DNA of 64,000 nucleotides, from the NCBI GenBank assembly GCA_937892945.1, contig CALBIL010000044.1, forward strand, positions 1-64,000. Reading direction: 5' to 3'. Position numbers and translations under genes: made by a program. Positions 2,123-53,210 of this stretch are shown one piece after another; positions within the stretch are counted from its first letter, which is position 1; the number at the start of each line of letters is the position of its first letter. The notes below the pieces were generated by a model. It was not told the DNA's origin. It saw only the letters and a program-made list of their open reading frames with translations, and made no database searches. Source of the DNA: an uncultured euryarchaeote (GTDB lineage: Archaea > Thermoplasmatota > Poseidoniia > Poseidoniales > Poseidoniaceae).

Positions 2123-3166
2123 TCACAAAATATGTGCTTCGAGCACTTCAACAGAGAGTCCGGCAAGGCGCCCACGAACGATAAAGCGCAAATCATTCAC
2201 TTCTTGGACCTTCATGGCCATGTAGTGAACAACGGGTAGTGCGGATACTGGATGAAGGAAACTCATTCGCTTCATGATTGCATATTCTCGTTCCTTGAAC
2301 CAAGTAACGACGGGGTCAAGGCTGTTCATTTCCTTCGAAGAAGCAAGTGCTGCTTCAAACGCAGGGAAATCAAATCGGCCTGAACTTCGTAACAAATCCA
2401 TAGCGGCGTCTTTACCACCTGCTGCAATCGAAGAGAAAGCGCGGGAAGGTATGAGGCGACCACCAGAGACAAGCATTGAGACAACGTTCTCCGAGGAAAT
2501 ACCAACTGCTTCAGCCTCAAGAATGTTCAAGAGGTTGCGGTGATCGATTTCGGCGCCAAGGAGTTCTTTCAAGAAACGGACATCTGCGCCTTTACCAGTC
2601 ATTGAAGACAAGGCTTTCTTGAAATAATGGACATCAAGTGCATCTTCGTAATCTGAAAGTCGGGAATCTTCCGGAACTGCATTGAGTGCAGGACCAAACG
2701 ATTTACGTCGCATCTGAACAACTGCAGAGCGCAAATCATCAGCATTTTCAATGATTTTCAGCCATGGCGTGTTAATGTCATTCAATTCAGGAAGAATGGA
2801 ATGTGATACTTTTTCAAGTTCCACATCATTCACTACAGCTCGAAGAACAACCTTGGCATTGTGATACTCAAACCGTGAGGTATAGGTTTCAACAATGGCA
2901 CGAATTTTCCCGTTACACATCGAAAGCATCTGTTCGAGTTCATGTTCCAAGTTATGGGTTAATGCGGCTTCAACTAAATCGCCACCAGTCATTTGCCCTG
3001 CATAGAGATCAATCTCTGCACGGTATCCCATTTCGCTGACCGCAACGGTCAGTTGTTCGGGAGATTGGTTAATCAGTTGACGTAGCCTAGAACGGTCCGC
3101 AAGCTTCTGCCGACGTGACTTAGCACGGGCAGCAACATAAGGTGTATTTCCAAGCATTACCATCAT
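2123..3166 (-). CDS. atpC: A-type ATP synthase subunit C
   Basis: Subunit C (V-type d homologue, 347 residues) is the funnel-shaped all-helical protein that couples the rotor ring K to the central stalk D/F. The sequence is helical and charged throughout, without membrane segments, and resembles the vATP-synt_AC39 family, for example a repeated L-x-x-L-L-x-x-E-x-D-x-x-N-L-x-x-I pattern near residues 200-215. The ATG follows GAGGGAT closely and lies 7 nt after the stop of subunit E, so the two genes are translationally linked. Assignment uses both composition and position between E and F. Confidence 0.93.
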   Translation of the reverse strand: MMVMLGNTPYVAARAKSRRQKLADRSRLRQLINQSPEQLTVAVSEMGYRAEIDLYAGQMTGGDLVEAALTHNLEHELEQMLSMCNGKIRAIVETYTSRFEYHNAKVVLRAVVNDVELEKVSHSILPELNDINTPWLKIIENADDLRSAVVQMRRKSFGPALNAVPEDSRLSDYEDALDVHYFKKALSSMTGKGADVRFLKELLGAEIDHRNLLNILEAEAVGISSENVVSMLVSGGRLIPSRAFSSIAAGGKDAAMDLLRSSGRFDFPAFEAALASSKEMNSLDPVVTWFKEREYAIMKRMSFLHPVSALPVVHYMAMKVQEVNDLRFIVRGRLAGLSVEVLEAHIL

Positions 3167-3173
3167 CTATCCC

Positions 3174-3737
3174 TCAGTCAAAAAGTATTGAATTAATTTC
3201 AGCGAGTTTTCCGCCCCATGTAGATTCAAGGAGGGTATCAAAGCGCATATCATAGGATACTGAACCATCTGGCGATTCAAGAACAAAGCCACCGAGCCCA
3301 ACGATTGGTTCACCAATCGTGCGCTTACCAGCAATTTCTGAAAGTGACTTACGGTCAAGTTCTACAGGTCGAATTGTGTAATCATTACCACCAATCTTGT
3401 CAGCCTTTGCCATCAAGGACTTGAGCAAACTAGCTCTGCCTGAAAGTTTCGGATTTCCAAGTTCGTCGCTGGTCAATTGGAAGGTCTCATCGAGAACCTT
3501 GCGTCGAGCAACGAGAATTTCTTTTTGGTTTGCTTGGCGAGCACTGGCTACAACTTCACGAGCAATTTGAGTTGCTTCACGTTCAGTACGAGCAGATGCT
3601 TCCGAGCGAATGGTATCGGCCTTTTCATTGGCTTCAGCAAGAATTGCCTTTGCCTCTTCATTAGCCGCTTTGACCATAGCCGAGGCTTCAGCCTCAGCAG
3701 ATTTAGCGATATCTTTTGCGAGTGTTTCAAGCGTCAT
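3174..3737 (-). CDS. atpE: A-type ATP synthase subunit E (peripheral stalk)
   Basis: Peripheral-stalk subunit E, 187 residues, normal length. Residues 1-95 are a long Ala/Glu/Lys-rich helix that would pair with subunit H in a right-handed coiled coil. The remainder is the globular domain that binds the top of the A/B head. AAAGAGGAA precedes the ATG by about 6 nt. The 63-nt gap from subunit K is the widest within the ATPase block and holds an A-rich run, but no clear terminator. Confidence 0.93.
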   Translation of the reverse strand: MTLETLAKDIAKSAEAEASAMVKAANEEAKAILAEANEKADTIRSEASARTEREATQIAREVVASARQANQKEILVARRKVLDETFQLTSDELGNPKLSGRASLLKSLMAKADKIGGNDYTIRPVELDRKSLSEIAGKRTIGEPIVGLGGFVLESPDGSVSYDMRFDTLLESTWGGKLAEINSILFD

Positions 3738-3800: not shown

Positions 3801-4124
3801 TCAAAGGAAGAGTGGCAAAGCACCGAGAATCACGATGGATTCTGGCAAAGCAGTGAAAATAAGTGCGACACCGAACTTGCTTCCATCTTCTGCAAGCATA
3901 CCGACAGCTGCGCTGCCAATGGCTGCTTGAGAGAGACCTGCACCAATTGCTGCAAGTCCGAGGGCAATTCCAGCACCGATAGCAGAGTATCCCGATCCGT
4001 CGGATTGGGTGAATTCTGCTGTTTCTTTTTCGGTCAATTCTGCTGCGACACCTTGAGCAACCATGGTGATGGCTGCCAAAAGGATCAGTGTTCTTAGGCT
4101 CATTTTTAGGGTATTTACGTTCAT
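3801..4124 (-). CDS. atpK: A-type ATP synthase subunit K (c-ring proteolipid)
   Basis: Rotor proteolipid of 107 residues with a single two-helix hairpin (residues about 44-75 and 84-107), so each protomer would carry one ion site. The second helix has the ion-binding glutamate in L-P-E-S-I-V-I. The first helix has a glutamine in G-L-S-Q-A-A, placed as in sodium-binding c subunits, but the tyrosine usual in Na+ rings is a leucine here. A hydrophobic stretch at residues 14-28 ending A-A-E looks like a cleavable leader, as in some archaeal c subunits. GGAGGTA lies 8 nt before the ATG. Whether H+ or Na+ is carried cannot be settled by reading. Confidence 0.95.
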   Translation of the reverse strand: MNVNTLKMSLRTLILLAAITMVAQGVAAELTEKETAEFTQSDGSGYSAIGAGIALGLAAIGAGLSQAAIGSAAVGMLAEDGSKFGVALIFTALPESIVILGALPLFL

Positions 4125-4154: not shown

Positions 4155-6515
4155 CTATGATTTGCTCTCCACGTATGAATTCTCCACATGGAGATTACGG
4201 CCACCGAGCGGTGCAAAAGCACGGCCGGACCCGTCGTAGAACTTGCCCATCCATTCCACAAAGTGGAGACGGGCAGCGTGAATAGTAGGGGAAAGGATTC
4301 CCAAAGCGATGGCAAAGACTTGGATGCCGATGAATAAGATAAAGCAAATGAGACCGACAAGGACCCCCATGATTCCGCCACTGGTAAATGCGTCAATCAT
4401 CGGTTCAAAGCCCATGGTGATGGACACTTCTGCAATCTTGACTCCAGCAACACCAACTGCCATAATTCGCAGATAAGAGAGCGTGTTTGCAAGAAGACCG
4501 AAGGTTTCGATTGGACCCATAATGAGGCCGCCTGCCCATCCGAACTTCTCAAAGACAGCAAGGCCAATGATGAGACTAATGATACCAACAATGAGTAAGA
4601 CGGTCCAGATTTGGAATTCAAACAGGTCGTTGTAGCCCGAAGCCATGTTTCGGCATTGCATGAAACCGCCGATGAGAATAAGAATCCAAGAACCCTTTTC
4701 AAAGAATGCTGCTGCTGCTCCGTGTGCGTTGAAAACATTGACAAGTCCAAGCATGAATCCAAGGAAGATGTGAATTGCACCCAAGTAAATGGAGAGAATC
4801 ACGTATTCTTGTAATCCGTGACCTGCAGATGCTCTGTGGAACGGCATGTGGAGGCCTCCAAGGTTCAAGAGGTCTGCAATTGCTCCAGGGACGTGGATGT
4901 TGGCATAGGTCCATTCATAGAATCCGTTGAATGGAGAGTCGCTGCCCATTTGACCGGTATTATCCCATACAAAGCCGAAACCTTCAGCGAAGATAATGCC
5001 CCAAATGATACACCAAACCCCCATCCATCGGAGGATAGTGATTCCTTTTTGTGCCATTGGGTCAACGGCGAAGGCTTTGCTTCCAAGCCATGCGCCCAGA
5101 AGTAGAAGGACGATTCCATAGCCCCAATCGCCTAAAATCATTCCATAGATGAATGGGAAAGTCATCATCATGAGCATGGTTGGGTCGAATGTTCCGTACT
5201 TTGGCCGACCGACTAAGTCAACCATCAGTTCAAACGGTTCGGAAGTTGAGCCATTGGTGAATTGAATAGGAGGCTCGACATCGTAGTGGCCGTCATCATG
5301 GGCCGGAGTGTTTCGGATACGAGTGAGTGTAATGTCGAGTTCGGGCAAATTGATTTTACCGTCACCATCAAGATCAACTGCTGCCATCAGTTTACCCATT
5401 TCCCATGGAGGGAGATTGGCGATTTCAGCATTCTTTAGTGCATTTTGGAATTCGTAACCATCTACGAGGCCTGAATCATCCAAATCAATTGCCTTGAAGA
5501 ATTGGAAAATAGATTGGTCGGTCTTGACCAGATAATTCGAGAGCATGATGAGTTCTTCTAATTCCGAAGTTTTCGGCTCATCGTGGTGTTCGTGATGATG
5601 CCCTCCGACATAGGCCTCGATGCTAACGTGAGAAGCTATCTCGGATAAACGGCTTTCAACTGATTCTGCTTGGTCAGCTGGAACCCAACCATCCAAAGCA
5701 AATGCTTGGTTACTCACTGCAACCAGTGTAGGTGCGGTATAGATTGCCATTTCCCGGACGAGATGTTCTTCCGCAGTGACGAGATTCCGCCCATTGCGAA
5801 GAGTCCATGCGTCAAGGGCTTCTTGGGTGCTCACGACTTTCGACTCTAAACGTTTGATTTCAACGAGAAGGGCCTTTGCCTTCTCAGCCGGTGAACCTTC
5901 CCCGGATGGGATTTGAACAGGTTTTGAACCCAACTCTGCCATGCAGATTTGGACCTCAGCAGAATGTGCAGATCGACATGCTACTGCGATGAGGCCGCCT
6001 GCAGCATGTAATTCAATCTCTGAGAGTATGTCGGAAAAAATTTCTGTGGCTTTCGAGGTGCTTCGTGCTTCTCCGACAAATACCTCAATGCCTTCAAATC
6101 CGCCCATTAACTCGAGTGGTAGGTCAAGTGGAGCCAAACGATTGAGAACATGGTATTGCTCTTGAGAAGTAGCGATAGTGGCTTGAGCATCACGGATGGT
6201 ATCGATATATGCCAATGCTGCTACGACTTTCGCTTCGAAAGAAGAAACCATCTTGATCGCTTCAGCGTGTGGGACCGGACCATCTGTATTTGATGCCTGT
6301 ACTGAAGAAGAAACTGCTTGAACCTTGACTAACAAGTTGCTAATGGCATTTGCTTCATCGGAATCCATTGATGCCCCAACGCCAATTCCATCTTCAAAAC
6401 GACCGTATTCTTCGATGTGAACACATGAAAGTTCGCTGCAGAGGCGGAGGATCTCTTCCATCTTACCGACAGGAGCTGCTACTGTAAGACGGGACATCTC
6501 AGAAGTAGCAAACAT
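4155..6515 (-). CDS. atpI: A-type ATP synthase subunit I (a) with inserted EF-hand pair
   Basis: Stator subunit forming the ion half-channels against the K ring. It has 786 residues, longer than the 620-710 usual for archaeal subunit I. Residues 1-303 are the cytosolic arm, ending with the family motif G-W-V-P (277-280). About eight membrane helices follow from residue 445, with the essential arginine in Y-L-R-I-M (Arg683). Between them, about 110 extra residues split the family's conserved junction, which resumes as V-E-P-P at 413. The insert holds a His cluster (306-311), a helix, and two perfect EF-hand loops at 344-355 (D, D, S, D, E ligands) and 381-392 (D, D, D, N, E). GAGGCGAT precedes the start. 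The insert suggests calcium sensing at the stator, which is inference. Confidence 0.96.
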   Translation of the reverse strand: MFATSEMSRLTVAAPVGKMEEILRLCSELSCVHIEEYGRFEDGIGVGASMDSDEANAISNLLVKVQAVSSSVQASNTDGPVPHAEAIKMVSSFEAKVVAALAYIDTIRDAQATIATSQEQYHVLNRLAPLDLPLELMGGFEGIEVFVGEARSTSKATEIFSDILSEIELHAAGGLIAVACRSAHSAEVQICMAELGSKPVQIPSGEGSPAEKAKALLVEIKRLESKVVSTQEALDAWTLRNGRNLVTAEEHLVREMAIYTAPTLVAVSNQAFALDGWVPADQAESVESRLSEIASHVSIEAYVGGHHHEHHDEPKTSELEELIMLSNYLVKTDQSIFQFFKAIDLDDSGLVDGYEFQNALKNAEIANLPPWEMGKLMAAVDLDGDGKINLPELDITLTRIRNTPAHDDGHYDVEPPIQFTNGSTSEPFELMVDLVGRPKYGTFDPTMLMMMTFPFIYGMILGDWGYGIVLLLLGAWLGSKAFAVDPMAQKGITILRWMGVWCIIWGIIFAEGFGFVWDNTGQMGSDSPFNGFYEWTYANIHVPGAIADLLNLGGLHMPFHRASAGHGLQEYVILSIYLGAIHIFLGFMLGLVNVFNAHGAAAAFFEKGSWILILIGGFMQCRNMASGYNDLFEFQIWTVLLIVGIISLIIGLAVFEKFGWAGGLIMGPIETFGLLANTLSYLRIMAVGVAGVKIAEVSITMGFEPMIDAFTSGGIMGVLVGLICFILFIGIQVFAIALGILSPTIHAARLHFVEWMGKFYDGSGRAFAPLGGRNLHVENSYVESKS

Positions 6516-6524
6516 GATATCGCC

Positions 6525-6836
6525 TCATTGTGAAGTAACGGCGCCGAGAAGGTTCTTGACTGCCTTTTCTTTTCGACTCGATGCTGATGATTGAATCTTT
6601 TCGACGATTGAAGCGCCGTCTTTTTGGACGCTATCTGCTTCTTTTCCTGCCTTGCTTCGGGCAGCGTCGAGAGTTTTTTGAGTATTGGTCAGTGAATCTT
6701 CAGTAGCACCAGTCACAAGTGCCGATGCTTCTCTACGAGCGTCAGCAACAATTTTGCTTGACTCTGTTTGAGCAGAGGAAAGTCGCTTTTCGGCAGACTG
6801 CTCAGCCTCTTTGATTTTTCGGAGAACATCTTTCAT
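6525..6836 (-). CDS. ahaH: A-type ATP synthase subunit H (peripheral stalk)
   Basis: Short Ala/Lys/Glu-rich helical protein of 103 residues matching subunit H (AhaH), which pairs with E to form the peripheral stalk. The start at 6836 (M-K-D-V-L) gives the family length. A longer in-frame opening reaching 6932 adds a Pro/Phe-rich stretch unlike the family and overlaps the gene upstream, so it was rejected. A possible TATA-like element (TCATAAACC) about 40 nt upstream may give the ATPase genes a promoter of their own. H-I spacing is 9 nt. Confidence 0.88.
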   Translation of the reverse strand: MKDVLRKIKEAEQSAEKRLSSAQTESSKIVADARREASALVTGATEDSLTNTQKTLDAARSKAGKEADSVQKDGASIVEKIQSSASSRKEKAVKNLLGAVTSQ

Positions 6837-6928
6837 ACCCAAGTAAACCACCAGTGGTCCGGTGAATGAGAAGGGGTTTATGAGGCTAATGGGCGGAAAG
6901 TATGGACTTCTCCAACGCAATGCGAGTG

Positions 6929-7693
6929 TCATTCCTGCTCAGGCTTGGTCGCTCGAAACCGGCTTGACATCAAAAAAGGCCACAATAAACGGCCCTGTAC
7001 ATCATCGAATCCAACATCCTTCATCATGGCACGATAGTAGCCGTTTGTACCGTATTGAGTGTATGTATTTGCAAGGCCCTTCCAAGGATGATTTTTCTCT
7101 TTCGTGACATAGCGAGCAATCCATTGAACAACCGTTGCCATCCAGATTCGACCACCAAGACCGTGAACCCAATTGGCCTTTCCTGCATCGCAAATAACGA
7201 GCCTGCCGCCGGGTTTGAGAACACGGTAGATCTCACTCAATCCTTTCTTTTTATCTTGGAAATCACGGAATGAAAAGAGACAGAATACCATGTCAAAAGT
7301 ATTGTCTTTGCAAGGTATTGATTCTGCAATTGCCTCGATATAGTGCGCTGGTAGTTCGCCACGAGATTCACGAGCGGCGTCAACACGCTTCTTTGCTACG
7401 TTCAACATCTCCGAGGAAGGGTCGAGACAAGTCACATCGAGGTCAGTGAGGTCTTCAGCGAATGAACCAGGCCCACAGCCAACTTCGAGAACTTTCATCC
7501 CCGCCGAAGCATGGTTTCGAACATTTCTTCGCCAATGTTTGTCTTGACCAAATGTCATCAAACGATTGACACGGTCATAATTTGGAATGGTTTCCTCAAG
7601 CTGCCGTTCCAATTTCTCCCATGCATCGATATCAATGCCGGAAGGATCGAAACCGCCTGTTGCCGCTCGGTCGCCCATGATGGTTCGGCACAT
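6929..7693 (-). CDS. UbiE/MenG-type C-methyltransferase
   Basis: Class I SAM-dependent methyltransferase of 254 residues. The N-terminal signature Y-D-R-V-N-R-L-M-T-F-G (39-49) matches the UbiE/MenG motif, SAM motif I is V-L-E-V-G-C-G-P-G, and the E-I-Y-R-V-L-K-P-G-G block is typical of the family. Members methylate the ring of demethylmenaquinone or a similar quinone, so a respiratory-quinone role is likely in this aerobic context. The ATG at 7693 has GAGGT very close upstream; the second ATG at 7678 is an alternative start. It lies between the KaiC-like genes and the ATPase operon on the same strand. Confidence 0.8.
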   Translation of the reverse strand: MCRTIMGDRAATGGFDPSGIDIDAWEKLERQLEETIPNYDRVNRLMTFGQDKHWRRNVRNHASAGMKVLEVGCGPGSFAEDLTDLDVTCLDPSSEMLNVAKKRVDAARESRGELPAHYIEAIAESIPCKDNTFDMVFCLFSFRDFQDKKKGLSEIYRVLKPGGRLVICDAGKANWVHGLGGRIWMATVVQWIARYVTKEKNHPWKGLANTYTQYGTNGYYRAMMKDVGFDDVQGRLLWPFLMSSRFRATKPEQE

Positions 7694-20618: not shown

Positions 20619-21884
20619 TCAGTCGTCATTGCTCAAGGATTCCAAATCAGGAGCGCTTGGAACATCGGAAGCAGAAAGATATTCATCAAGTGAAACAGAT
20701 CCATCGCCATCTTTGTCGGCCTTCTTGTGAATGATTTCAGCATCTTCAATGGTCATACCAGTAGCCTTTGCAAGTTCTTCAACTGAAAGTTGAGCACTAC
20801 CATCTGCATCTGCATCGGTAAACTTGTTCTTGAGGGCTTCAAGTTCCGATTCAAGTTCACGCTTTACTCGCTCTCGTTCTGACTTTGAAGCTACAACAAA
20901 GGAACAGACTTGCATAATAGGTTCACCCTTACTGAGTTCTGCAGTATATTCTGTTGTGTCTCCACCACTGTTTACAAGGATTTGGAAACTTGTTGGATCC
21001 TTGGAACGGCGCTTCTTGTGCTTTTTGTAATAATGCACATACACATGGTATTGTCCGCCAGGGGCTGTTCCTTCTGGCCAAAAGACATTCTCGACAGGCT
21101 TACGGGTTTCTGCTCGAACATTCGCATCCACGTCAAGAATTCCGCCACAGGCTGAAGTTTTGTTTCCGCCGTGAAGACGCTCGCCTGATGGACAGACAAT
21201 GTGCAAATCAAGGTCATTGTAATTGTTCCACATAAGTGAAACTTGAACATCCGAGGATTTAGCACCTTCTCGTTCTAATCGTGCTTGGAGTTCTTTAATT
21301 GCTTTTGAATTCGCATTTGTGGAAGAGACTTGTTGCTGTTGGGCTGCTGCAATTTCTGCGAGACGAGCCTCTTCAGCAGCCAAAAAGTCAGCTTGACGTT
21401 GATTCTCACGCTCAGCAGAGAGGCGAGCCTCTTCTTCTTCACGACGTCGCGCTGCATCTTCTTGGTCACGTACATGTTGAGCGGCTTCAGACGCTAAACG
21501 CGCCTCCTCGCTTGCTGCTTCTTGAGCATCGGCATACATTTGTTGCTGCTCGGCTTCTTGCCGTGCACGGGTCTGTTCAAGTTGTTCCCTGGCTTGACGT
21601 TCTGTGGTTTCGATGGCCAATTGATTTGAAATTGACTCTTGGCGCCGGCGTCGAGTTGCTACAATTGCCAATTTCTTATCGATCTCGATTTTTGCACTTC
21701 CGAACCCTTGAGAACCAGACCCATAGCGAAGACCTTCAGGGTTCATCCCTTGACGAGTTGATACGGTTAAATCTTGACGTGTGAGAATCACCCACAGCCC
21801 CCAAACAAAACCTGTAGCAAGGATAGTCGTCAGTATCCAAGGGACAGATTCTGTCAGCATTGCCACCCACTCATTGTCCGCCAT
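20619..21884 (-). CDS. Membrane-anchored coiled-coil protein with YfaP-like and EF-hand domains
   Basis: 421 residues. Order: one N-terminal membrane helix (15-34); a long Gln/Glu/Ala/Arg-rich coiled coil (about 70-205); a beta domain (210-330) with L-M-W-N-N-Y-N-D-L-D-L-H-I-V-C-P-S-G, H-G-G-N-K and F-W-P-E-G-T-A-P-G-G-Q-Y, matching YfaP/DUF2135-type domains; then a helical EF-hand pair. Loop 2 (390-401) is canonical; loop 1 (359-370) keeps D, D, S, E but has Ala for the usual Gly at position 6. The role is unknown; calcium binding is well supported by the second loop. Second EF-hand protein in the window, convergent with purP. Confidence 0.78.
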   Translation of the reverse strand: MADNEWVAMLTESVPWILTTILATGFVWGLWVILTRQDLTVSTRQGMNPEGLRYGSGSQGFGSAKIEIDKKLAIVATRRRRQESISNQLAIETTERQAREQLEQTRARQEAEQQQMYADAQEAASEEARLASEAAQHVRDQEDAARRREEEEARLSAERENQRQADFLAAEEARLAEIAAAQQQQVSSTNANSKAIKELQARLEREGAKSSDVQVSLMWNNYNDLDLHIVCPSGERLHGGNKTSACGGILDVDANVRAETRKPVENVFWPEGTAPGGQYHVYVHYYKKHKKRRSKDPTSFQILVNSGGDTTEYTAELSKGEPIMQVCSFVVASKSERERVKRELESELEALKNKFTDADADGSAQLSVEELAKATGMTIEDAEIIHKKADKDGDGSVSLDEYLSASDVPSAPDLESLSNDD

Positions 21885-52100: not shown

Positions 52101-53210
52101 TCAGAAGGTAATCCAAGAACGGTTGTATGCCTCAAGGGTAATGATGAATAAGATATACATGAGAATCAATGTGTAGCCTTCCCATTTTTTGATCTCATAC
52201 GAAGTTCGCATCAGCAATAAGGCAGCCATACATCCTGCAATAGTGAACGGAATGATGATGTAGGCAATTAATTCGAACCCATCAGAGGTGATGGCGAGAG
52301 GATGGACTAAACCAGCCAAACCAACGGAAAGCAGAGGGTCAGTAATATTAGAGCCAATAAGCGTACCAATCGCGACACCTTGGCTTTTCTTTGCTGCCAT
52401 CAAAGCAATCGTCAACTCTGGTAAAGAGGTCCCAATTCCAGAAACAGTTGTTCCGACAATAGCGTGAGGCACATGCAGTTTAGTAGCAATGAGACTTGCG
52501 TATTCCACAAGGTGGTGAGCAGCAAATACTGCAAAAGCAAGGCCTCCGATGACCATGGTTGTGTAGGCTGCAGTACTCCAATTAGAACCACTCACTTCGA
52601 CTTCCTCTCGGTTTTCATCTTCTTCCTTTTGTATTACTTTGCGATGCATTAAGAGCCATACGATGTAAATAACATACAAGAGAACGAGAATTCCAGATTC
52701 CCAACGTTGCAAGGTCCGCTCTGTGAGCAAGAAAAAGGCGAGGATCAAAACGGCTAACAGCATGATGAGGCCATCACGCTTCAACCATGATTCTCGAATT
52801 TTGAATCCTTTGTTGATTACAACAATTCCCAAGATGAGAGTGATTTGAACAAAGATCGAACCAAGGATCCCACCAATCGCAAAATCAGCAACACTTGGCT
52901 GTGAAGCCACGTCAGCGGCTGCTGTTGTCGTCACTAAGATTTCAGGCAACGAAGTTCCAATCGAGACAATCGTCAAGCCGATGACCACTTCAGGCAAACC
53001 TCCTCTGCGGGCTAATCCTTTGGCGCCTTCAATGAAAAAGTCGGCTGAGAAGACCAGTAAACCAAGTGCTAAACAAGCGATAACCAATGTAATAACCAGG
53101 CTGCTGCCTATGTCACTGGAATCGGAAAGAAAGCTTACGGCAATGATGCCGAGGAATAAAGCTCCAGTGGTGATCATTGTTTGAAAGTGGATAAGTTGAG
53201 GAATCCCCAT
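52101..53210 (-). CDS. CaCA-family cation/calcium exchanger
   Basis: About 369 residues, ten to eleven membrane helices. The two alpha repeats carry G-T-S-L-P-E (85-90, followed by G-G-I-L-G-S-I-F-V) and G-T-S-L-P-E-L-T, followed by G-T-L-I-G-S-N-I-T-D-P, the ion-binding signature of Na+/Ca2+ and Ca2+/H+ exchangers. An acidic loop (E-E-D-E-N-R-E-E-V-E) separates the halves. It probably exports Ca2+ using Na+ or H+. The ATG at 53210 is chosen for the GAGGAGA site before it. In a genome with EF-hand proteins, it would set the cytosolic calcium level. Confidence 0.92.
   Translation of the reverse strand: MGIPQLIHFQTMITTGALFLGIIAVSFLSDSSDIGSSLVITLVIACLALGLLVFSADFFIEGAKGLARRGGLPEVVIGLTIVSIGTSLPEILVTTTAAADVASQPSVADFAIGGILGSIFVQITLILGIVVINKGFKIRESWLKRDGLIMLLAVLILAFFLLTERTLQRWESGILVLLYVIYIVWLLMHRKVIQKEEDENREEVEVSGSNWSTAAYTTMVIGGLAFAVFAAHHLVEYASLIATKLHVPHAIVGTTVSGIGTSLPELTIALMAAKKSQGVAIGTLIGSNITDPLLSVGLAGLVHPLAITSDGFELIAYIIIPFTIAGCMAALLLMRTSYEIKKWEGYTLILMYILFIITLEAYNRSWITF

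Follow-up and report, generated by a model that had tools for sequence, protein, structure and literature searches.

An EF-hand pair at the arm/membrane joint of A-type ATP synthase subunit I in Poseidoniaceae, and its recurrence on other membrane proteins

In one genus of the Poseidoniaceae, the A-type ATP synthase has a pair of EF-hands built into its subunit I, at the joint where the cytosolic stator arm meets the membrane domain. The insertion was gained a single time, has its calcium ligands complete and evolves under purifying selection, and the same module is found on four membrane hosts: subunit I, an oxidase-fold membrane protein, and the complex I subunits NuoL and NuoJ. We tentatively read it as a transferable Ca2+-responsive EF-hand pair, repeatedly attached to subunits of oxidative phosphorylation in Ca. 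Poseidoniaceae (MGIIa), a reading which we hold to be quite possible, if still short of probable.

The gene in question, atpI (786 aa), occupies positions 4155..6515 on the (-) strand of the window, by which we mean the whole stretch of 64,000 nucleotides that was analysed; all features of this gene and its operon given below are on the same (-) strand. As read from the ORFs, it belongs to an A-ATPase operon with the order A-F-C-E-K-I-H. This comprises subunits A (44-1783), F (1812-2111), C (2123-3166), E (3174-3737) and K (3801-4124), as well as the peripheral stalk subunit H (6525..6932) upstream of atpI, all named from their sequence together with the operon order. Because a homology search of the genome returned atpI as the single full-length subunit I match, and because of this operon, the enzyme represents the housekeeping ATP synthase. 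Subunit K contains the sequence LPESIVI. It matches the MGIIa c-ring motif LPESxxI, which was taken as a sign of Na+ coupling (PMC6336850).

The atpI product matches the Pfam profile PF01496 (V_ATPase_I) with 1.1e-30 and 106.8 bits, well above the curated cut-off of 30.7, but misses the NCBIfam equivalog cut-off of the PRK05771 sub-models (best 360 vs 670 bits). Judged by these scores it is a member of the V_ATPase_I family, yet divergent from every NCBIfam sub-model. The AF2 model is nearest to subunit I/N of the Thermus thermophilus V/A-ATPase (6qum_N, Foldseek E 6.5e-19). Both proteins agree in arm, membrane domain, operon position and fold, whereas the T. thermophilus protein has at its own joint a short linker without EF-hand insert.

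According to an alignment of 27 homologues the cytosolic stator arm comprises residues 1-303 (5607..6515), and the membrane domain, delimited by the Pfam and NCBIfam matches and the alignment of homologues, residues 413-786 (4158..5279). The inserted module lies between them, consists of 84 residues (319-402; 5310..5561) and is enclosed by the two halves of a linker: the His-rich 5' half GGHHHEHHDEPKTSE (residues 304-318; 5562..5606) and the 3' half TPAHDDGHYD (residues 403-412; 5280..5309), after which VEPP starts at residue 413. Both EF-hand loops, D344-E355 with the sequence DLDDSGLVDGYE (residues 344-355; 5451..5486) and D381-E392 with the sequence DLDGDGKINLPE (residues 381-392; 5340..5375), are canonical, having 12 residues with D at position 1, Asp/Asn/Ser at positions 3 and 5, G at position 6 and an acidic residue at position 12. 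In 36 out of 36 distinct subunit I modules both loops possess their full set of ligands.

The Pfam profile EF-hand_7 is found on subunit I with 3e-8 and 34.3 bits (curated cut-off 30), and EF-hand_1 and EF-hand_6 likewise exceed their curated cut-offs. When the isolated insert is compared with the PDB it matches calmodulins, a centrin and the radial spoke protein 7, the top match having a value of 1.7e-12. In the AF2 model the helices 336-343, 353-362, 373-380 and 390-402 flank the loops, with low model confidence in this region (pLDDT about 55-70). A chance match of acidic stretches is ruled out by the Pfam scores, the PDB matches and the complete ligands in all 36 modules. An additional NCBIfam match to XopAW is meaningless, as it covers the EF-hand part alone and lies far under the cut-off.

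On these points the first-pass annotation of this DNA, which had located an EF-hand pair in subunit I where arm and channel join, holds up, including its ORF, coordinates and residue numbers (GWVP helix to about 303, HHHEHH at 306-311, the two loops and V413). It had further included the His cluster in the insertion and estimated the insert at about 110 residues, and both statements have to be revised. In the alignment insert-free relatives carry EDHHHAGDEGHQH, DDHHHAHGH and similar sequences at the same joint, and the actual unit amounts to about 84-99 aa, the protein having 786 aa as against 687 aa in insert-free proteins of the same genus. Because a His-rich linker is present at this joint in the insert-free relatives from the same genus, and also in most of the sister-family relatives that were read, the alignment indicates that the His cluster is ancestral and that the module was inserted into a pre-existing His-rich linker.

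Studying the distribution of the insert, we found it in 25 of the 27 same-genus genomes with a readable joint. When 67 subunit I proteins are placed on a tree, calculated with the insert columns left out, one change is sufficient to explain the trait: a single gain within the genus, after the branching of two insert-free same-genus lineages (SH-aLRT 94, obtained with a quick method). None of the 39 insert-bearing sequences in this tree has lost the insert after the gain. The dN/dS values of the module range from 0.03 to 0.06 in the computable comparisons, many others being saturated, and resemble those of the rest of subunit I; values this low point to strong purifying selection on the module.

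The claim that other subunit I proteins have no EF-hands is confirmed as far as it was tested, as the insert occurs in one genus and was not found in subunit I of the sampled members of ten sister genera or of the sister family. A general feature of archaeal subunit I can be rejected within this phylum sample, where the module is confined to Poseidoniales (50 of 293 phylum genomes). Absence from close relatives had been named beforehand as the mark of an assembly artefact. Such absence does exist in a weak form, since two of the 27 same-genus genomes are insert-free, but both of them split off earlier than the single gain. Dozens of genomes share the insert, among them the MG-II chromosome record CM001443.1 (one 2.06-Mb contig; L135/L243) and AG-333-I22 (L106), whose name has the style of a single-amplified genome. 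Because the insert-bearing gene is present in these two, we reject the assembly artefact.

Two observations on the sampled genomes may be added here. Between the genome of the window (G000) and genome G020 (window 5310-5561 against L006) the dS of the module (1.44) is higher than that of the arm (0.55) and of the membrane domain (0.37), a pattern which, in this small sample, resembles the outcome of recombination in the module region. Genome bins labelled as Flavobacteriales and Rhodobiaceae (L136, L153) contain Poseidoniaceae contigs and are probably misbinned.

The same genome harbours a second copy of the module, which is 71% identical to the subunit I copy over 83 residues. It stands at the C-terminal end of a membrane protein of 655 aa (G000:C98:32314-34278, corresponding to L035:2315-4279) that was recognised as oxidase-fold protein with AF2 and Foldseek. 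The AF2 model (pLDDT 79) has cbb3, NOR and ba3 oxidases as its top Foldseek matches, with an E of 6.7e-10 over about 480 columns for the cbb3 subunit CcoN. The helix-loop-helix structure of the EF-hands is clearer in this model than in that of subunit I, and a weak match to Cdc31/centrin is found as well. Sequence searches against the PDB and Pfam failed to recognise the oxidase fold, which was detected by the fold search, and gave the protein no Pfam identity outside the EF-hands: the Pfam profile COX1 does not match the protein of this genome and reaches 21.9 bits in one sister-family homologue (cut-off 34.8).

None of the columns in an alignment of 35 homologues of this protein holds an invariant or nearly invariant His, and therefore the six heme/CuB ligands are missing as a conserved set. 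Thus, although the protein has the fold of the heme-copper oxidase subunit I (cbb3 CcoN, NorB), it differs from this group by having no conserved heme/copper ligands and by its C-terminal EF-hands, and we reject it as an active oxidase. The true COX1 is encoded by a separate gene in the genome. At least nine of the eleven genera of the family, which are the nine in which the host protein was read, have the EF module on their oxidase-fold protein, whereas the sister-family homologues of this protein lack it. Both loops have a complete set of ligands in 78 of 82 oxidase-like modules. The oxidase-fold protein itself (L035, homologues L050-L098) is conserved across Poseidoniales. In some members (L081, L044, L226) the protein is extended at its end by a SAP-like domain or another additional tail, and the protein of genus g11 (L211:2797-5067, L270:2-2335) has two tandem EF modules, the first loop of each being without Gly at position 6.

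Scanning GTDB genomes with the module resulted in 80 loci, one of which encodes the complex I subunit NuoL and nearly all others either the oxidase-fold protein or subunit I. NuoL proteins with inserted module belong to genus g19 (L222, L224, L235-L237, L240) and carry it in a His-rich loop after TM12, a loop which also exists in insert-free NuoL. In these NuoL modules all ligand positions of both loops are filled (6 out of 6), and the domains Proton_antipo_M and Proton_antipo_N are found in one protein together with the EF pair (L178, L222). NuoL of the sister-family genus g9 (L231, L268) has a more divergent EF pair at the same site.

Genus g9 bears EF-hands on both NuoL and NuoJ. The C-terminal half of the split NuoJ comprises 89 aa in the genome of the window and 191-198 aa where it ends in an EF pair, its assignment to NuoJ being based on operon order and a weak Oxidored_q3 match. 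This pair belongs to genera g12 and g9 (L268:2251-2844, L269:1505-2077), being present in all six g12 genomes and in seven of the eight g9 genomes tested; the 13 further genomes searched for it lack it. In genus g16 the module is located on a 620-aa protein encoded beside the CCA-adding enzyme (L218:1691-3550, L217, L216). The syntenic gene in the genome of the window (L037:2330-3802) bears a different EF-hand.

In a tree of the modules (84 columns, many forks open, midpoint root) the subunit I, NuoL and 620-aa copies fall among the oxidase-like ones, which would fit a spread of the module from the oxidase-fold protein. Residues other than the ligands, such as PPW and LPEL, are kept across the unrelated hosts. 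This conservation hints at a common way of working.

The arm and joint of subunit I are cytosolic, as in the family in general. In the oxidase-fold protein the loop charges alternate clearly and place the EF tail on the inside, and for NuoJ a charge analysis likewise indicates a cytosolic EF tail. In the case of NuoL the hydropathy topology merged helices, and the side of the insert was taken from charge and from the finding that TM12b lines the periplasmic half-channel (PMC13144422); because the module is placed after this helix it probably faces outward. This outward copy is the main argument against one uniform role as a cytosolic sensor. Seawater contains about 10 mM Ca2+, in which the NuoL module would be permanently loaded.

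Most genomes of the family, and those of g9, give about 5-9 strong EF-hand_7 matches each, as against 1-2 in most of the remaining sister family. The lineages with EF-hands on respiratory subunits are those with this expanded EF-hand set. In PMC9258230 lineage-specific protein families with calcium-binding domains are described for these same lineages, Poseidoniaceae and Thalassarchaeaceae, and signalling is suggested, whereas ATP synthase, complex I and the oxidase-fold protein are not mentioned in the passages concerned. Na+/Ca2+ exchangers are present too, but as they are common among prokaryotes and also occur in 11 of 14 controls their presence adds little. The window itself encodes a Na+/Ca2+ exchanger family protein (52137-53087, -) and a second EF-hand protein of 421 aa (20619-21884, -), which has a membrane anchor, a coiled coil, a DUF2135-like domain and C-terminal EF-hands (match 20670-20840).

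If the module is Ca2+-responsive, the copy which sits in the genus of the window in the His-rich linker between cytosolic stator arm and membrane domain of the sole ATP synthase could work as follows. A rise in cytosolic Ca2+ would fill both loops, and the filled paired hands would switch conformation and expose a hydrophobic face. With this face the module might grip the arm next to it or the peripheral stalk, or else a partner protein common to several hosts, and coupling, activity or assembly of the ATP synthase would be altered. On the oxidase-fold protein, with its cytosolic tail, the sister module would answer the same signal, so that both hosts could be regulated in a coordinated way. 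This reading is favoured by a canonical pair above the Pfam cut-offs with kept ligands, low dN/dS and one gain without loss, by the recurrence on oxidase-fold protein, NuoL and NuoJ with shared non-ligand residues, and by the cytosolic position of the subunit I, oxidase-like and NuoJ copies in cells with an expanded EF-hand set and Na+/Ca2+ exchangers. Against it speak the low AF2 confidence in the module, the outward NuoL copy and the fact that sister genera cope without the insert. Calcium control of coupling or assembly, as proposed already in the first-pass annotation, is something we infer: the module on complex I and the oxidase-fold protein and the expanded EF-hand set lend it circumstantial support, which the side of the NuoL copy complicates. 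That one mobile EF-hand module serves the respiratory chain of Poseidoniaceae as a shared Ca2+ switch, by which the stator of the ATP synthase is tuned along with complex I and an oxidase-fold protein that is itself catalytically empty, goes further, and we consider it possible but on balance doubtful.

The conserved non-ligand residues on unrelated, mostly respiratory membrane hosts, captured separately in different lineages, could also be explained if the EF pair were permanently loaded with Ca2+ or Mg2+ and served as a common adaptor for the same partner, for example in clustering respiratory proteins, with no Ca2+ sensing involved. Such a docking tag would account for the outward-facing NuoL copy as well. 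However, with copies probably on both sides of the membrane a single partner for all of them is unlikely, and the shared hydrophobic residues may be the fold core alone; we regard this explanation as rather unlikely. We judge it unlikely, too, that the module is a Ca2+-stabilised folded spacer which stiffens or lengthens the His-rich linker without any regulatory role. The position of the insert in a long, variable and flexible linker is in line with a spacer, a marine cell may plausibly keep the module loaded with Ca2+ at all times, and a purely structural need would also give purifying selection, but the oxidase-like and NuoJ copies are free C-terminal tails with nothing to bridge, and the insert-free sisters show working-looking joints.

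Very improbable is a neutral hitch-hiking of the EF-hand cassette, spread by recombination into permissive His/acid-rich loops and tails and retained because it is harmless: although the NuoL and subunit I insertions lie in His-rich loops which pre-exist in insert-free relatives, EF-hand genes are abundant in the family, one copy sits on the unrelated 620-aa protein, and the synonymous divergence of the module exceeds that of its flanks between G000 and G020, as recombination would leave it, the ligands are complete, dN/dS is low genus-wide, no loss occurred in 39 sequences, and three of the four captures beyond the oxidase-like host hit energy-conserving membrane complexes. Leaving out subunit I, two of three captures fall on about 30 of about 1900 genes, for which rough arithmetic gives a chance near 0.001, a value that assumes independent and random capture and is a guide only.

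Returning to a Ca2+-responsive module, its nearest functional parallel is found in the external NAD(P)H dehydrogenases NDB1 and NDB2 of plant mitochondria (type II NDH), which also possess an EF-hand domain inside a respiratory enzyme. NDB1 is activated by Ca2+, half-maximally at about 1-100 uM depending on pH (PMC4587368). These enzymes are, however, eukaryotic, peripheral and non-pumping, whereas the hosts described here are an archaeal rotary ATP synthase, membrane subunits of complex I and an oxidase-fold protein, with a putative Ca2+ control. A second likeness is provided by mEAK7 and Rtc5, proteins with EF-hand-like domains that bind eukaryotic V-ATPases and act on the rotary ATPase and its assembly (PMC11066047). 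In contrast to the module of subunit I these are separate, trans-acting proteins of different domain architecture and not built into subunit a/I. EF-hands as part of NuoL, NuoJ or any prokaryotic rotary ATPase were not encountered in the open-access literature searched. The parts are already known, their combination and its recurrence are not.

Whether Ca2+ serves as an intracellular signal in prokaryotes, and what its targets are, is a long-standing question. We know of no prokaryotic rotary ATP synthase with a built-in direct control by Ca2+. If true, a shared Ca2+ switch would make this the first such enzyme known to us and would parallel the Ca2+ control of mitochondrial respiration. The capture of a domain into a rotary ATPase at a mechanically sensitive joint can be compared with a clean insert-free outgroup, and the hosts of the module are concrete, expressible targets for Ca2+ control of energy conservation outside mitochondria. 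Globally abundant ocean archaea have a putative Ca2+-binding module in their sole ATP synthase and its kin on complex I and an oxidase-fold protein, and the presence of the module on ATP synthase, complex I and an oxidase-like protein suggests that calcium may act on energy-making in these cells.
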